Shown here piece by piece: positions 32,545 to 39,586 of a DNA stretch of 64,000 nucleotides (its first letter is position 1; each line of letters starts with the position of its first letter). A program made the translations under genes and the position numbers. This DNA is from Alphaproteobacteria bacterium. Lineage in GTDB: Bacteria > Pseudomonadota > Alphaproteobacteria > Rhizobiales > Beijerinckiaceae. Location of the stretch: NCBI GenBank assembly GCA_021325385.1, contig JAJPHH010000076.1:1-64000 (forward strand). The letters are read 5' to 3'. The notes beneath the pieces were generated by a model. It made no database searches, was not told where the DNA came from, and worked only from the letters and a program-made list of their open reading frames with translations.

Positions 32545-32668
32545 GGCCTTCGGAGACGAGGGCGAGCCATATTGCGGCGCACAAAACGCGGCTCCCTTGG
32601 GAGCTGCGCAGCAGGGCGTCGCGCGGGAGCGATAGAGTTAGTGCCATATTACCATTTCGTGATCAGAA

Positions 32669-32693
32669 GGAACTAGAGGTTGGCTGCGACGTT
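32669..32693 (+). promoter_or_regulatory. EcfG-type (general stress response) promoter
   Basis: GGAAC at 32669-32673, a 16-base spacer, and CGTT at 32690-32693. This is an exact match to the consensus of alphaproteobacterial EcfG sigma factors (GGAAC-N16/17-CGTT). It lies 41 bases before the ATG of the LuxR-type gene that heads the kai cluster. An eight-codon open frame (ATG 32712, TGA 32736-32738) overlaps the regulator's start codon in the leader. Confidence 0.7.
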
Positions 32694-32734
32694 AAAAGCG
32701 CGAGCTTCCCCATGGACGAAAAGGGGCGACAGCC

Positions 32735-33385
32735 ATGAATGACACGTCAGAGACCGCGTCCGTCCTCCGGCCAATCACGTCCGCGCTGGCGAACGGCCTC
32801 GTCGTGGTCGACGCCGCCGGTCAAATCGTTTGGATGGACGAGGGCGCTCGCCGGCATGTCAACGGAGGACTCTCCGGTCTTTCCTCGGCTTTAAGGACGC
32901 CCGCCGCCGACGGAGTCCCTTGTCTCGTTTCGACCATCGAAATGGACGTCGAGGGCGAACGCCGCCCGTTATGCGTCCTCCAAGAAGGAGAAGGCGCCAA
33001 AACGGGGCCCGACCTCATCGCCGGCCTCGAGGCCATACTCGCCGACAGTTCATGGTTTACGAGAACGATTATCGACAAGCTTAAGGCGTGGCGGCAAGCC
33101 AAGCGGCCGGCGACCGCCCGAGCGTCCGATCTCGACCTGCTCAGCGAGCGGGAGCGCGAGATCTTGGCGCTGATCTGCGAAGGCCGAAGCGACTCCGAGA
33201 TGAGCAAGTTGCTCAACCTCTCTCAGAACACCGTGCGCAACCACGTGGCTTCCCTGTACCGCAAAATCGGGGTCAATCGGCGAAGCGCCGCGATCATCTG
33301 GGCTCGCGAGCGAGCCATCACCAACGACGAGTTCATAGCCGCAAGGAGCGCTCGGCCTAAGCGGAATCGCCCGTCGGCCAGATGA
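32735..33385 (+). CDS. LuxR-family transcriptional regulator with PAS-like sensor
   Basis: A 216-residue regulator. The N-terminal half (about 10-85) looks like a small PAS domain (ALANGLVVVDAAGQIVWMDEGARRHV). The C-terminal LuxR helix-turn-helix is at about 135-195, with the canonical LSEREREILALICEGRSDSEMSKLL and NTVRNHVASLYRKIGVNRRSAAI. ATG 32735 has AAGGGG eight bases upstream. It is preceded by an EcfG-type promoter and followed after 181 bases by kaiB-kaiC-kinase. It is therefore a plausible input or output regulator of that system. Its target genes are unknown. Confidence 0.85.
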   Translation: MNDTSETASVLRPITSALANGLVVVDAAGQIVWMDEGARRHVNGGLSGLSSALRTPAADGVPCLVSTIEMDVEGERRPLCVLQEGEGAKTGPDLIAGLEAILADSSWFTRTIIDKLKAWRQAKRPATARASDLDLLSEREREILALICEGRSDSEMSKLLNLSQNTVRNHVASLYRKIGVNRRSAAIIWARERAITNDEFIAARSARPKRNRPSAR

Positions 33386-33566
33386 TTCCATACTAGCGGG
33401 CTGGTAGCGTCCGCCTAACTAGTAGTTCTGGTATCCGCCTCTCTCTTGCGCCGGAATTCGCCCTGTTGTTTCTTCGCGCCGTGCGCGAACGGGATTGTTG
33501 CTGGTCCCAATTTAGCGGGACGGCGCCGACGACGTTCCCTTCCCTGGCCGCGAAGCGAGGCCACGA

Positions 33567-33884
33567 GTGTCGAATCCAGAGGGCGATTCGCCGGCGAGCG
33601 AAATCCTGCTGCGGCTTTATATAGCGGGAAGCTCCGCCACATCGCGACGAGCCGAGTCGAGTCTGCTCGACCTGCAACGCGCGGTCGGCCCGAAGTGCCG
33701 GGTGGAAATCGTCGACGTGCTCGCCAGTCCCGAACTCGCGGAGCGGGCAGGCGTCTTGGCGACGCCCACGCTCTCTTACGACAATCCGGATCGTCCTCGC
33801 CGCGTCATTGGCGACCTCAGCGACGCGAAGCGGGTTCTGGAATTTCTCGGGATCGAGGCGAAGGAGAAACCGCATGATCTCTGA
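33567..33884 (+). CDS. kaiB: circadian clock protein KaiB
   Basis: A 105-residue KaiB homologue. In cyanobacteria KaiB switches fold and binds the KaiC CI ring to promote dephosphorylation. The conserved blocks are clear: LRLYIAGSS (15-23), a helix, VEIVDVLASPELAE (46-59), LATPTLSY with the cis-Pro region (64-71), and RRVIGDLSD (78-86). There is no long acidic C-terminal tail. The start is GTG at 33567. Its end overlaps kaiC by 11 bases, which implies coupled translation. The order kaiB then kaiC, directly followed by a histidine kinase, differs from the kaiC-kaiB order described for Rhodopseudomonas. Confidence 0.93.
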   Translation: MSNPEGDSPASEILLRLYIAGSSATSRRAESSLLDLQRAVGPKCRVEIVDVLASPELAERAGVLATPTLSYDNPDRPRRVIGDLSDAKRVLEFLGIEAKEKPHDL

Positions 33885-35370
33885 CGAGCAGGATCCGGAT
33901 ATTCCCGACGTGCTTGAGCGGGTGAGGACAGGCGTTCACGCTTTCGACGAATTGGTGAATGGAGGGCTACCGCGAGCTCGCACGACGGTCGTCGGAGGTA
34001 CGCCGGGAAGCGGAAAAACGATCTTCGCCGTCCAGTTTCTCGCCCATGGAATCACGACGCATGGCGAGAACGGGGTGCTTGTCACCTTCGAGGAGCCGCC
34101 GGCCGACATCGAGTCGAACATGCGCGGTTTCGGCTGGGACTTGGCGCAATGGCGCATGGAGGGGCGCCTCGCCGTGGTCGACGCGAGCCCGCCGGCGAAA
34201 GAAGAATTGGTCATCGGCGACTTCGACCTCTTCGGCCTGCTGTCGAGAATCCAACATGCGGTCAAATCGGTAAACGCGAAACGTGTCGTCCTCGATTCGC
34301 TGACCCAGCTGTTCGATCACTTCATCGGCGATCCCAAAGTCCTACGGCGCGAACTGTTTCGCATCACCGACACCCTGAAGAAAGCGCGCCTCACTGTATT
34401 GATGACTGCAGAGCGGACGAGCGAATACGGGGAAATCACACGCCATCGGCTGGAGGAGTTCATCGCGGACAACGTCGTCATCCTGCGCAACGTCCTGCAA
34501 CGCGAGAAGCGCCGTCGTACGATCGAGGTGCTGAAAATGCGGGGGAGCCACCATGCGGAAGGCGAGGCGCCGTTCACCATTATGGGCGGCGCCGGCCTGG
34601 TCGCGGCGCCGCTGTCGTCGCTTCGGCTGGAGCAGCAATCGAGCATGGTGCGAGTCACCAGCGGCAACCCGGCGATCGACGAGATGTGCGGCGGCGGCTT
34701 TTTCCGCGATAGCGTGACTCTGGTCAGCGGCGCGACGGGCACCGGCAAAACGCTGCTGGTCACGAATTTTCTGGCCGGCGGGGTGGCGGCGGGCGAGAAG
34801 GCGATCCTGTTCGGCTTCGAGGAGAGCCGCGGTCAGCTCTTTCGCAACGCCGGCGGCTGGGGCGTCGACTTTGCGGCGATGGAGGCGGATGGCAAGCTGA
34901 GAGTCTTCTGCCTTTATCCGGAGGCGCAAGGGCTCGCCGATCACCTCCTCGCCATTCAGAACTTGGTGGACGAGGTGCGGCCGAACCGGATCGCCATCGA
35001 CAGCATTTCCGCGCTCGAGAGAGTGGCGCCGGATTCGGGATTCCGCGAATTCCTCATCAGCCTCACCTCTTTCATCAAGAAGCGCGAAATCGCCGGCCTT
35101 TACACCGCCACAAGCAAATCATTGGTCGGCGGCGAAACCGCGAGCGAGCAGCATATCTCGACTTTGACCGACTCGATCATCCTGCTCCGCTACATGCAGG
35201 AGCAGGACACGATGCATCGCGGCTTGATGGTGTTGAAGATGCGGGGGAGCGAACACTCGAAGGAGATCCGGCGGTTTACGATCGACGGCGCCGGCATGCA
35301 CCTTGGCGAGCCTTTCAAAGGCGCGCCTAACGTGTTTTCCGGAGGGGATATCGACCGTTATAGCCGATGA
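33874..35370 (+). CDS. kaiC: circadian clock ATPase/kinase KaiC
   Basis: A 498-residue double RecA-type ATPase. Domain CI has Walker A GGTPGSGKT (41-49), catalytic Glu pair 73-74 and Walker B Asp141. Domain CII has Walker A SGATGTGKT (285-293), Glu316-Glu317 (FGFEESRGQLFRNAGGWG) and Asp376. The autophosphorylation pair is conserved as Ser429-Thr430 in HISTLTDS, matching Ser431-Thr432 of Synechococcus KaiC. The C-terminal tail that binds KaiA in cyanobacteria is short and diverged, and no kaiA is present. ATG 33874 overlaps kaiB, and the stop overlaps the kinase start (ATGA). Confidence 0.95.
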   Translation: MISDEQDPDIPDVLERVRTGVHAFDELVNGGLPRARTTVVGGTPGSGKTIFAVQFLAHGITTHGENGVLVTFEEPPADIESNMRGFGWDLAQWRMEGRLAVVDASPPAKEELVIGDFDLFGLLSRIQHAVKSVNAKRVVLDSLTQLFDHFIGDPKVLRRELFRITDTLKKARLTVLMTAERTSEYGEITRHRLEEFIADNVVILRNVLQREKRRRTIEVLKMRGSHHAEGEAPFTIMGGAGLVAAPLSSLRLEQQSSMVRVTSGNPAIDEMCGGGFFRDSVTLVSGATGTGKTLLVTNFLAGGVAAGEKAILFGFEESRGQLFRNAGGWGVDFAAMEADGKLRVFCLYPEAQGLADHLLAIQNLVDEVRPNRIAIDSISALERVAPDSGFREFLISLTSFIKKREIAGLYTATSKSLVGGETASEQHISTLTDSIILLRYMQEQDTMHRGLMVLKMRGSEHSKEIRRFTIDGAGMHLGEPFKGAPNVFSGGDIDRYSR

Positions 35371-37334
35371 ACAGCAACAGCGATCCCAGCTCCGCTGCGG
35401 CCGATGGCGCGCCTCCTCCTTTGGCCGGCGGCGGCGACCAGGCAGAGATCAGGTTTCTGGTCGAAAAGAACGCCGACGGAATCATCGTCGTGGACGAAGA
35501 CGGGATCGTCCTGCTCGCCAACCCGGCGACAGCGCAGATATTCGGCCGCCCGCCGGCTTCGCTGATCGGCTCCCCCGTCGGAATTCCTCTCGTCGCCGGA
35601 GAGACTACGGAAATCGTCATTCATCGGCCCGGCGGCGATCAGGTCAACGCGGAAATCCGGGTCGTTGACGCCAATTGGGGCGGTCGTCCCGCTCGGCTCG
35701 CGAGCTTGCGCGACATTTCCGCGCGAAAAGCCGTCGAAGAGCGCTTGCGGCACGCCGCCAAGATGGAGGCCGTAGGCCGGCTCACCGCCGGCATCGCTCA
35801 CGATTTCAACAATCTGCTGACCGTCGTGCTCGGCAATCTGGAGCATGCCCGGCGTCTCAACCAGGACGCGACGCTTCAGACCCTTCTCGGCAATGCGACG
35901 CGCGGCGCGGCGCGCGCCGCCGAACTGACCGAACGCCTGCTGTCGTTCGCCCGCCGGAAGCCGCTGGAGCCGAAAGCGCTCGATGTCAACGCGCTCGTCT
36001 CCACCATGTCCGATCTACTTCGGCGCACGCTCGGCGAGCGCGTGACGATCCGCGTCGGCCTTGGCGCGGATGTTTGGCAGGTCGAAGCCGATCCCGCGGA
36101 ATTGGAGGCCGCGATCGTCAATCTCGCCGTCAATGCGCGCGACGCGATGCCCGCCGGCGGCGAGGTGACGATCGAGACCGCCAATGTCGAATTGGACGCC
36201 GCTTACGCGAGCCGCGAGGCGGAGGTCCGTCCGGGTCCGTACGTCCTCATTTCGGTCGCCGATACCGGAATTGGAATGTCGCGGGAGGCGCTCGGCCAAG
36301 TCTTTGAGCCATTCTTCACCACGAAGGCGGACGGACGCGGCACCGGGCTGGGCTTGAGCCAGGTTTACGGCTTCGTCAAGCAGAGCGGCGGCCACGTGAA
36401 ATTGTACAGCGAGCCGGGGATTGGGACGACCGCGAAAATCTATCTTCCAAAAGCGGACGCGCAGGGCGCGGCCGCGCAGCAATCCGCGCCGCCGACAAGC
36501 GATAGCCAGATTCCCGTCAGTCGCTCCGGCGAAACGATCCTCGTCGTCGAGGACGACGAGGATGTTCGTAAATACGCCGCGAGTTGTCTCCGACAGCTCA
36601 ATTACGCCGTCCTCGAAGCCGCCGACGTCCCGTCGGCGATCCGGATTCTCGAGAGCAATTCCGAGATTCGGTTGCTGTTCTCCGACTTCGGCCTGCCGGG
36701 CGGAATGGATGGGCGGGACCTCGCCAATCGCGCGCGCCAGATTCGGGATGGCGTCAAGGTGCTGATCACGACAGCTTATCCCGGCGGCGCCCTGGTCCGC
36801 GAAGGACGGCTTGACCGAGGCGTCGAACTGCTCGCCAAGCCGTTTACCTTCGCTTCGCTCGCCCGCCGCGTCCGGGACCTCCTGGACCGCCAAGAGCCGT
36901 CGTCGCCGCGCGTCCTCGTCGTCGACGACGAGGCGCTGCTGCGCATGGTCCTGATCGATAGTCTCGTCGAAGAAGGATTTGTCGCTGAGGAGGCCGCCAA
37001 TTTCGAAGAGGCCGCGTGCAAGACGCGCGGTTTCGGCGACCGATTGGCGGCGGCAATTATCGATATCGGACTGCCGGACCGCCCGGGCGACGAACTCGTA
37101 TCGGAAATCAGAGCGCTGCGGCCGGATTTGCCGATCATTCTGGCGACCGGCTATGCGGATGAGGACCTCCGGCGCCGCTTTGCCGCAGATGCGCAAGTCG
37201 AAATCCTCGCCAAGCCCTTTGACCCGCGAAGCCTCGTCGCCAAGCTTCGCGCCTTGGGAGTCCGGAAGGCGGCGGGCTCGAGCGACCCGCCTCTTTCGAC
37301 GCCTCGCTCCGCCCGGCAGGAAGAGGGCGCTTGA
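35367..37334 (+). CDS. hybrid histidine kinase (PAS-HisKA-HATPase-REC-REC)
   Basis: A soluble 655-residue hybrid kinase. PAS domain at about 25-120 (FLVEKNADGIIVVDEDGIVLLANPA). HisKA with phospho-His145 in GIAHDFNNLL. HATPase domain to about 362 with N box VNLAVNARDA, DTGIGM (299-304) and GTGLGLSQV. First receiver domain has phospho-Asp440 (LLFSDFGLPGG) and the second has Asp566 (AIIDIGLPD). There is no membrane segment and no KaiB-like sensor domain as in cyanobacterial SasA. It is coupled to kaiC by a four-base overlap and is likely its signalling partner. No terminator directly follows. Confidence 0.92.
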   Translation: MNSNSDPSSAAADGAPPPLAGGGDQAEIRFLVEKNADGIIVVDEDGIVLLANPATAQIFGRPPASLIGSPVGIPLVAGETTEIVIHRPGGDQVNAEIRVVDANWGGRPARLASLRDISARKAVEERLRHAAKMEAVGRLTAGIAHDFNNLLTVVLGNLEHARRLNQDATLQTLLGNATRGAARAAELTERLLSFARRKPLEPKALDVNALVSTMSDLLRRTLGERVTIRVGLGADVWQVEADPAELEAAIVNLAVNARDAMPAGGEVTIETANVELDAAYASREAEVRPGPYVLISVADTGIGMSREALGQVFEPFFTTKADGRGTGLGLSQVYGFVKQSGGHVKLYSEPGIGTTAKIYLPKADAQGAAAQQSAPPTSDSQIPVSRSGETILVVEDDEDVRKYAASCLRQLNYAVLEAADVPSAIRILESNSEIRLLFSDFGLPGGMDGRDLANRARQIRDGVKVLITTAYPGGALVREGRLDRGVELLAKPFTFASLARRVRDLLDRQEPSSPRVLVVDDEALLRMVLIDSLVEEGFVAEEAANFEEAACKTRGFGDRLAAAIIDIGLPDRPGDELVSEIRALRPDLPIILATGYADEDLRRRFAADAQVEILAKPFDPRSLVAKLRALGVRKAAGSSDPPLSTPRSARQEEGA

Positions 37335-37733: not shown

Positions 37734-37756
37734 AAGGCCCCCTGAGGGCCTTTTTT
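37734..37756 (+). terminator. attenuator-type terminator upstream of ilvB
   Basis: Stem AAGGCCC / GGGCCTT with loop CCTGA, followed by a run of T to 37756. It lies between the leader peptide and ilvB (start 37814). The segment GGCTTAGG (37697-37704) can pair with CCAAGGCC (37732-37739), with one mismatch and one G-U pair, as an alternative antiterminator. Confidence 0.7.
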
Positions 37757-37813: not shown

Positions 37814-39586
37814 ATGTCGAAGCAGATGACCGGCGCGGAGATGATCGTGCAAGCCCTAAAGGACCAGGGCGTCGAGGTCGTTTTCGGCTATCCGGGCGGC
37901 GCGGTCCTGCCGATCTACGACGCGATTTTCCACCAGAACGAGCTTCGCCATGTTCTTGTTCGCCATGAGCAAGGCGCCGCGCACGCCGCCGAGGGCTACG
38001 CCCGCTCTTCAGGCAAGGTCGGCGTGTTGCTGGTCACGTCCGGCCCTGGCGCGACCAACGCCATCACCGGCCTCACGGACGCGCTGCTGGATTCGATCCC
38101 GCTTGTCTGCATCACCGGCCAGGTGCCAACCCATCTCATCGGCTCGGACGCGTTCCAGGAATGCGACACGACCGGCATCACCCGCAATTGCACCAAGCAC
38201 AATTATCTCGTCCGCCGGATCGAGGACCTGCCGCGCATCCTGCACGAGGCCTTCTACGTGGCCGCCAATGGCCGGCCGGGACCGGTCGTCATCGACATTC
38301 CGAAGGACGTCCAATTCGCGACGGGGACCTATACGCATTTCAAGAATATCCAGCACAAGACATACCAACCGCAACTCAAGGGCGACCTTTCCAAAATCAA
38401 ACAGGCCGTCGAGATGATGACCAAGGCGCGACGGCCGGTCTTCTATACGGGCGGCGGCGTCATCAATTCCGGTCCGGCGGCTTCGGCTCTGCTGCGCGAA
38501 TTGGTTCGGCTGACCGGCTTTCCGATCACCTCGACCTTGATGGGGCTCGGCGCGTACCCGGCCGACGATCGGCAATGGCTCAACATGCTCGGCATGCACG
38601 GCTCGTTCGAAGCCAATAACGCCATGCATGATTGCGATCTCATGATCTGCGTCGGCGCGCGGTTCGACGACCGCATCACCGGAAGGCTCGACGCCTTCTC
38701 GCCGCATTCGAAGAAAATCCATATCGACATCGATCCGTCTTCGATCAACAAGAACGTCAAGGTCGATCTCGGCATTGTCGGCGATTGCGCCCATGTGCTG
38801 GAGGACATGGTGCGGTTGTGGCGGACCAGCGGCGCCAGGGCGGACCAGGCCGCGCTCGCCAAATGGTGGAAGGACATCGACCATTGGCGGGCGAAGGATT
38901 CTTTCGCCTTCCGCATTTCGAGCAAGATCGTCAAGCCGCAGCACGCGATCCAGCGTCTCTACGAGCTGACCAAGGATCGCGACGTCTACATCACCACGGA
39001 AGTCGGACAGCATCAGATGTGGGCGGCGCAGCACTTCAAGTTCATGGAGCCGAACCGCTGGATGACATCGGGCGGGCTCGGCACGATGGGCTATGGTCTG
39101 CCGGCCGCCATTGGCGCGCAGATCGCCCATCCCAATTCGCTGGTCATCGATATAGCCGGCGAGGCCTCGATCCTGATGAACATGCAGGAAATGTCGACGG
39201 CTCTGCAGTATCGGCTGCCCGTGAAGATTTTCATCCTCAACAATCAGTATATGGGCATGGTCCGCCAATGGCAGGAGCTGCTGCATGGCGGGCGCTATTC
39301 GGAGAGCTACACCGCCTCGCTGCCGGACTTCGTCAAGCTCGCGGAAGCCTATGGCGCGCATGGAATCCGCTGCGCCGACCCGGCCGATCTCGACGAGGCG
39401 ATCACGGAGATGATCGAAACGCCGAAGGCCGTGATCTTCGATTGCGTGGTCGATCAAAAGGAGAATTGCTTCCCGATGATCCCCTCAGGCAAGGCGCATA
39501 ACGAAATGCTCATGGCCGATCTCTCCGACGACGCCGGCATCGAGATCGGCAACGTCATCGACGAGAAGGGCAAGATGCTGGTGTAA
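37814..39586 (+). CDS. ilvB: acetolactate synthase, large (catalytic) subunit
   Basis: TPP-dependent enzyme making 2-acetolactate from pyruvate (and 2-aceto-2-hydroxybutyrate), the first common step of Val/Ile/Leu synthesis. The 590-residue protein has the catalytic-Glu block VRHEQGAAHAAEGYARSSGK near residue 50. Its FAD/central domain is in the middle. The TPP motif is in the C-terminal third, as AGEASILMNMQE...FILNNQY with Glu in the place of the usual GDG Asp. The Shine-Dalgarno AGAGGG precedes ATG 37814. The small subunit gene follows after 60 bases containing a strong palindrome. Confidence 0.95.
   Translation: MSKQMTGAEMIVQALKDQGVEVVFGYPGGAVLPIYDAIFHQNELRHVLVRHEQGAAHAAEGYARSSGKVGVLLVTSGPGATNAITGLTDALLDSIPLVCITGQVPTHLIGSDAFQECDTTGITRNCTKHNYLVRRIEDLPRILHEAFYVAANGRPGPVVIDIPKDVQFATGTYTHFKNIQHKTYQPQLKGDLSKIKQAVEMMTKARRPVFYTGGGVINSGPAASALLRELVRLTGFPITSTLMGLGAYPADDRQWLNMLGMHGSFEANNAMHDCDLMICVGARFDDRITGRLDAFSPHSKKIHIDIDPSSINKNVKVDLGIVGDCAHVLEDMVRLWRTSGARADQAALAKWWKDIDHWRAKDSFAFRISSKIVKPQHAIQRLYELTKDRDVYITTEVGQHQMWAAQHFKFMEPNRWMTSGGLGTMGYGLPAAIGAQIAHPNSLVIDIAGEASILMNMQEMSTALQYRLPVKIFILNNQYMGMVRQWQELLHGGRYSESYTASLPDFVKLAEAYGAHGIRCADPADLDEAITEMIETPKAVIFDCVVDQKENCFPMIPSGKAHNEMLMADLSDDAGIEIGNVIDEKGKMLV

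Follow-up and report, generated by a model that had tools for sequence, protein, structure and literature searches.

A KaiBC cassette that may be wired to the alphaproteobacterial general stress response through a LuxR-type regulator

The role of KaiB and KaiC outside the cyanobacteria is an open question, to which a locus in an alphaproteobacterial genome of the Beijerinckiaceae (assembly GCA_021325385.1) adds a second: what would a KaiBC pair do behind a promoter of the general stress response? The stretch analysed here, called the window below, is positions 1 to 64,000 of contig JAJPHH010000076.1, and its positions 32,669 to 37,334 hold an EcfG-type promoter motif and genes for a LuxR-type regulator, KaiB, KaiC and a hybrid histidine kinase, together referred to as the cassette. 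Our analysis suggests a clock-like switch wired to the general stress response. The reading that we favour, with a probability of roughly 65%, is a portable KaiBC cassette that would stand under the alphaproteobacterial general stress response, with LuxR and the sigma factor EcfG connected in the four steps set out below. It gives the open question a concrete and testable wiring, which runs from a stress sigma factor through a dedicated regulator, for which operators are predicted, to KaiBC with a kinase, in hosts that include named Bradyrhizobium strains such as B. valentinum (L007) and B. cytisi (L009). The general stress response of alphaproteobacteria would thereby gain a possible timing or memory arm. 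The components in the window are, in nucleotides (nt):

32669..32693, + strand: EcfG-type promoter GGAAC-N16-CGTT, exact match
32735..33385, + strand: luxR, 216 residues; C-terminal Pfam GerE domain (55 bits), PAS-like N-terminus by homology
33567..33884, + strand: kaiB, GTG start, 105 residues; Pfam KaiB (PF07689, 57 bits)
33874..35370, + strand: kaiC, 498 residues; two KaiC (PF06745) domains
35367..37334, + strand: hybrid histidine kinase gene, 655 residues; Pfam PAS-HisKA-HATPase_c-REC-REC, with His145 and receiver Asp440 and Asp566

The layout given by a first-pass annotation of this DNA was confirmed: all four genes are co-directional in the order luxR-kaiB-kaiC-kinase, the kaiB/kaiC overlap of 11 nt and the kaiC/kinase overlap of 4 nt are both present, the luxR-kaiB gap is 181 nt, and the domains named for KaiB, KaiC and the kinase (PAS, HisKA, HATPase_c and two REC) are all found by Pfam. 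The same order recurs in other genomes. A KaiC scan of genome contigs gave 33 loci, among them ten proteobacterial ones with KaiC above 80% identity (L006-L015), all of which show the order luxR-kaiB-kaiC-kinase with an exact EcfG motif ahead of luxR. KaiC searches of genome sets then matched 10 of 397 genomes of the order and 6 of 385 of the class (both at E <=1e-100), 3 of 149 of the family (1e-100), 16 of 265 of a Bradyrhizobium-type genus (1e-200) and 6 of 76 of the order of genome G462 (1e-150); the window's own genome is one of those counted for order, class and family, and the sets overlap. The 36 stretches around KaiC matches comprised 9 repeats of earlier loci, 14 new loci with luxR and 13 without a luxR match (L134-L146), which serve as the luxR-less comparison set; second KaiC copies of three genomes (L081-L083), available with short flanks only, lie outside these 13. 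The window, the ten first-scan loci and the 14 new ones make up the set of 25 non-redundant alphaproteobacterial cassettes used throughout; loci with identical KaiC DNA (9) had been taken out before this count, and some members are near-identical strains. Around them, a single gene family, an ABC transporter (L009, L124-L126), is conserved as a flank in more than two loci.

Does the general stress response reach this locus? The exact GGAAC-N16-CGTT claimed for the luxR leader is present at 32669-32693, and by sequence it satisfies the published EcfG consensus GAAC-N16,17-C/GGTT (PMC4814048). A scan of the window with spacers of 15 to 18 nt returned one match, against 2.15 expected in a shuffled window, and the window's own genome contains 126 matches (N16/17) against 129 for the reversed pattern. 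The motif by itself is thus no evidence, since its genome-wide count does not rise above the reversed control, and judging it by sequence alone was rejected for this lack of enrichment. These counts are what speaks for a chance match in a cassette with no tie to the general stress response, an explanation that we nevertheless regard as extremely unlikely: at one place, with diverged spacers, the motif is exact or one change away in 25/25 loci. It is exact at the matching place in 22 of them and reads GCAAC in the other three (L008, L130, L131); L008 has an exact motif 75 nt upstream of that place, and 23 of the 25 loci carry an exact motif no more than 260 nt before the LuxR match. On one strand, 250 nt of background hold 0.0026 matches on average (6 in 577,468 nt). 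Even when only the 16 loci with upstream similarity below 70% are counted, 14, including L008, have the exact motif, where simple shuffles give 0.001 per sequence, and in the luxR-less set no exact motif lies within 600 nt of kaiB (0/13; L144 has a one-mismatch version). Recurrence at the same place in orthologous cassettes, where absence of the motif would have refuted the first-pass reading, therefore puts it beyond chance. The flat genome-wide count tells against a stress promoter, as do the three GCAAC variants and a loose GAAC-N16-CGTT on the opposite strand about 210-240 nt upstream of kaiB in two further loci, L175 and L176. On balance, an EcfG-type promoter before luxR is supported.

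The window's own genome also encodes PhyR, NepR and, adjoining NepR, an extracytoplasmic function (ECF) sigma factor. These lie in one stretch (G000:C193:18500-26229) with phyR, a divergent nepR, the ECF sigma gene and a DUF892 gene, and its 7.7 kb contain seven exact EcfG motifs. In the first step of the proposed scheme, for which the conservation of the promoter argues strongly, PhyR would free EcfG from NepR, and EcfG-RNA polymerase would transcribe luxR from 32669-32693.

Would the same transcript carry kaiB, kaiC and the kinase gene? The DNA on either side of luxR contains further candidate sites:

32639..32643, 32650..32654 and 32660..32664, no strand assigned: operator-like half-sites TAGTG, TACCA and a third that is degenerate, shortly before the EcfG -35
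33391..33406, no strand assigned: palindrome TACTAGCGGGCTGGTA, proposed regulator site 1 before kaiB
33417..33433, no strand assigned: second palindrome AACTAGTAGTTCTGGTA, spacer 7, one mismatch
33443..33474, + strand: promoter-like block, CTCTTG at 33443-33448 and, 19 nt on, GTTnnnT at 33468-33474

CTCTTG occurs between luxR and kaiB in 25/25 loci at a constant distance from the downstream palindrome half, and GTT follows it by 19 nt in most. An exact palindrome, with a spacer of 6 or 7, lies within the strict luxR-kaiB gap of 17 of 25 loci; in L008, L011, L117, L120 and L127 it overlaps the end of luxR, L130 has a copy with a single mismatch, and the copies of L123 and L131 are degenerate. 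The remainder of the cassette loci (277,581 nt) holds two exact and four one-mismatch copies. When the 25 loci are aligned on GGAAC, conserved half-sites also appear near -31 (TAGT), -20 (TACYA) and -9 (TRGT), and 23 of them carry TACYA-N5/6-TRGTA, exact or with a single mismatch, ahead of the luxR -35, the exceptions being the window and L122.

A single EcfG operon, in which one luxR-kaiB-kaiC-kinase transcript is made and the gap palindrome and CTCTTG are only an autoregulatory or attenuation element, has the co-directional genes and short gaps of the window in its favour, as well as the position of the palindrome, which in most loci begins only a few nt beyond the luxR stop and has a pyrimidine-rich tract after it; of the four stretches that were folded, the one from L014 did better than shuffled versions of itself (z -2.80). 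We nonetheless consider it rather unlikely. A like palindrome stands upstream of the luxR promoter, where that promoter would leave it untranscribed; the four z-scores are inconsistent (0.19, 0.42, -2.80 and -1.49) and the palindrome arms do not form the predicted stems in every case; and L006 and L123, with gaps of 666 and 529 nt, keep the block near kaiB, at distances of 46 and 106 nt to the KaiB match. The palindrome was also considered as a terminator and rejected, given the inconsistent RNA folding and a terminator scan that found no such site in the window's gap. Since CTCTTG stands in 25/25 gaps, in most cases preceded by the palindrome, kaiBC-kinase is probably more than the downstream end of an EcfG operon. 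The first-pass operon, which had no separate kaiB promoter, accordingly gives way to a conserved control block that probably marks a promoter of kaiB's own, and of the stress link that it proposed, the EcfG-type promoter at luxR stood, while kaiBC-kinase as a plain distal extension probably did not.

Who reads the palindrome? The copy at 33391-33406 is the sole strict TACYARN4YTRGTA site in the window's own 5.35-Mb genome. The 24 cassette genomes have 25 strict sites, 19 of them in or beside the cassette by coordinates, and 24 cassette-free genomes have eight. The reversed pattern occurs about five times per genome, more often than the motif itself; CTAG is rare, which may be the cause of this excess. 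Since the control exceeds the motif, the comparison between cassette and elsewhere was used instead. Strict spacer-6 palindromes gave no sign of a broad LuxR regulon in the 24 cassette genomes, and CTCTCTTG was not found within 600 nt of kaiB in any of the 13 luxR-less loci. The same palindrome as TACTAACATACTAGTA was seen away from any kai match at G751:C1:1018340, G1049:C39:26818 and G1075:C17:40688, in the order of G462. The simplest reading is that the palindrome is the dedicated site of the cassette's only DNA-binding protein, and probably LuxR is a dedicated local regulator, kaiB has its own promoter and stress acts partly via LuxR. In the second step of the scheme, the LuxR/GerE protein, perhaps tuned by its PAS-like part, would bind TACYA-N5-7-TRGTA at its own promoter and in the luxR-kaiB gap, where it would most likely activate a second promoter, the CTCTTG block, for kaiB-kaiC-kinase; EcfG and autoregulation would then form a feed-forward loop.

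LuxR might instead be a repressor of its own and the kaiB promoters, the cassette staying silent until the PAS-like domain senses a signal and EcfG mainly supplying the repressor. A regulator gene that adjoins its targets and strict sites that lie mostly within the cassette would suit this, but the sites stand upstream of the luxR -35 and of the kaiB CTCTTG without overlapping either, and the usual position of an activator is upstream of the -35, not over it. We judge repression distinctly improbable, more so than the single operon.

Several points weigh against activation by LuxR of a separate kaiB promoter. Activation and repression are not readable from sequence, and a different protein could read the palindrome. 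None of the other 24 loci has as weak a copy of the upstream operator as the window; 6 of the 25 strict sites fall outside cassettes and 6 of the 24 cassette genomes have none, in a genome-wide scan that covered spacer-6 sites only; a palindrome with one mismatch occurs in the 1500 nt before kaiB in two luxR-less loci, in L141 at 53 nt; and the gap block gave no match when scanned with a sigma-70 pattern. The regulator itself adds to them: a Pfam scan of the window's LuxR matched no PAS domain, its AlphaFold2 model is weak, with a predicted local distance difference test score (pLDDT) of 63, and a fold search with that model returned no match at E <=0.001. The earlier LuxR/PAS label held for its GerE half. 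For the PAS half the pointer is homology: the protein is 45% identical over 198 residues to a PAS-PAS-PAS-GerE protein, in an alignment that reaches the last PAS domain of the latter, so that by homology its N-terminus is PAS-like. A receiver domain was not found in it.

Near relatives of the cassette LuxR are the PAS-PAS-PAS-GerE proteins (500-506 residues) of L169:2543-4042 and L123:5584-7101, the latter encoded downstream of a truncated cassette kinase. In the Bradyrhizobium-type genus, a LuxR relative (E <=1e-22) is present in 25 of 265 genomes, including 16/16 KaiC-positive ones. The other nine are a genome with a split-kaiC cassette (G987), one with a different KaiC (G916) and seven with longer open frames, among which the two domain-scanned, G911 and G986, encode PAS-GerE and GAF-PAS-GerE proteins. 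In the G987 locus (L167:6348-7828), kaiC is split over two frames and the control block is intact. In G916 (L168:5049-7601), the control region is the same, with this luxR, an exact EcfG motif, the palindrome and CTCTCTTG, but the KaiC behind it belongs to a different family (28% identity) and KaiB has no match there, possibly a natural KaiC swap.

What would the cassette do once transcribed? KaiC scores 632 bits against the curated model NF006799 (cut-off 408) and 544.7 against TIGR02655, just below its 546.25. Ser429-Thr430 and the Glu pairs of both CI and CII are invariant in 25/25 loci; we take the former, with its residue roles, to correspond to the Ser431/Thr432 pair of Synechococcus. 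The closest solved structures are 8zn5 (647 bits, deposited as 'KaiC'), 8zn6 (526 bits) and a large group at about 510-514 bits, presumably Synechococcus and Thermosynechococcus KaiC. The C-terminal tail of KaiC serves KaiA binding. The match to the 519-residue chain 1u9i stops at its residue 493, residue 491 of 498 in the window, and cassette KaiCs (488-504 residues) all end alike before that tail; by this match and the orthologs, the window KaiC has neither a KaiA-binding tail nor a long C-terminal extension. The R. sphaeroides KaiC (8dba, 300 bits) autophosphorylates without KaiA, as has been suggested for other KaiBC systems (PMC10076222). By this analogy and from the KaiC anatomy, in the third step KaiC would autophosphorylate on Ser429/Thr430 without KaiA, and KaiB, through its predicted thioredoxin-like binding fold, would let it be reset. 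KaiB reaches 51 bits against the TIGR02654 equivalog, below the cut-off of 145, and 46 bits against Legionella pneumophila KaiB (PDB 4kun); its AlphaFold2 model, built from six sequences, has a thioredoxin-like order of elements (pLDDT 72). At the columns of the fold-switch residues K58, G89 and D91 (in part from PMC5520375), which we mapped ourselves, all 25 loci lack these residues, with A (24) or S (1), F (25) and G (25) in their place. The His of the kinase is kept in 24/25 loci (R in one) and both receiver Asp in 23/25 (gaps in the other two). In the fourth step, the PAS hybrid kinase would read or set the state of KaiC and relay it via its two receiver domains. Because strict LuxR sites are mostly local, output is most likely through KaiC/KaiB or the kinase.

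The kaiB/kaiC overlap is kept in 24 of 25 cassettes; L131 has a 6-nt gap, and a KaiB-KaiC fusion there was rejected, a stop codon lying between the two. A candidate kinase ATG overlaps the kaiC stop by 4 nt in seven loci (window, L118, L124, L125, L126, L130, L131), and most others have candidate starts 12-59 nt downstream; no candidate start was found in L127. Beyond the kinase gene of the window, a hairpin with a T run at 37734-37752 is a candidate terminator of the cassette or attenuator of the following gene, a large open reading frame at 37814 judged by eye to be acetolactate-synthase-like.

Has the cassette moved as a unit? In a KaiC tree of 63 rows, rooted at the midpoint and with one outside row on a very long branch, a branch supported at 100/100 sets the 25 LuxR-bearing rows apart, and L134, L135, L136 and L175 are the nearest rows outside. 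L127, from the order of G462, groups with L117 and L120 of the Bradyrhizobium-type genus (100/100), which fits transfer of the cassette between orders. In L176 (L176:5001-7910, a plasmid of Rhizobium sp. 11515TR), the KaiC match is interrupted near its 3' end by about 1.46 kb, probably an insertion. A fuller history can be offered only tentatively, and we think it doubtful as a whole: a single event would have placed a KaiBC that works without KaiA, and whose KaiC stands closer to the cyanobacterial type than to that of R. sphaeroides, behind a PAS-LuxR and an EcfG promoter. General stress would then start a KaiC phosphorylation hourglass and autoregulation would latch it; the hourglass would time the period since the stress and be reported by its own kinase, and the whole unit would later have moved between alphaproteobacterial orders.

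Among known systems, the proto-circadian or hourglass KaiBC of R. palustris and R. sphaeroides (PMC4794148, PMC10076222) shares with the cassette the lack of KaiA at the locus and a co-encoded PAS histidine kinase. The first-pass annotation was right that the gene order differs, since R. palustris has kaiC-kaiB-kinase (PMC4794148) and R. sphaeroides likewise has kaiC-kaiB-kinase, with an HWE kinase, whereas the cassette has kaiB before kaiC and a HisKA kinase. The R. sphaeroides KaiC is 37% identical to that of the window and is distinguished by Ser-Ser sites and a coiled-coil tail (PMC10076222). With a KaiC of another lineage and an HWE kinase there, the cassette is not a rearranged R. sphaeroides operon; the R. 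sphaeroides kai stretch examined has neither the palindrome nor an exact EcfG motif. The luxR-less alphaproteobacterial loci L134-L136 and L175 (a Sphingobium plasmid) are closer, with KaiC 73-76% identical, the order kaiB-kaiC-kinase and, in L175, the same kinase domains, but they differ in having no LuxR match, palindrome or exact EcfG motif near kaiB. The kai operon of Legionella pneumophila (Loza-Correa 2014) is reportedly under RpoS control. Like the cassette, it is tied to stress, but it is not an EcfG system and its KaiC is described as a KaiC2 homolog (PMC5520375), KaiB being the only protein of it compared by sequence here. Methylobacterium extorquens offers another alphaproteobacterial KaiC tied to stress (heat, ultraviolet light), in kaiC1-kaiB2-kaiB1-kaiR1 and kaiC2-kaiR2 loci that differ in order and content and for which the accessible text gives no EcfG link (PMC8069551). 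A link between a kai locus and EcfG was likewise not found in the literature searched, which comprised titles and the starts of abstracts of the papers listed, most subscription papers being out of reach. The EcfG wiring, the dedicated regulator and the largely cassette-bound palindromes, absent from that literature, would thus be what is new here, added to what was already known: KaiBC without KaiA alongside a kinase, and stress ties in Legionella and Methylobacterium (PMC5520375, PMC8069551).

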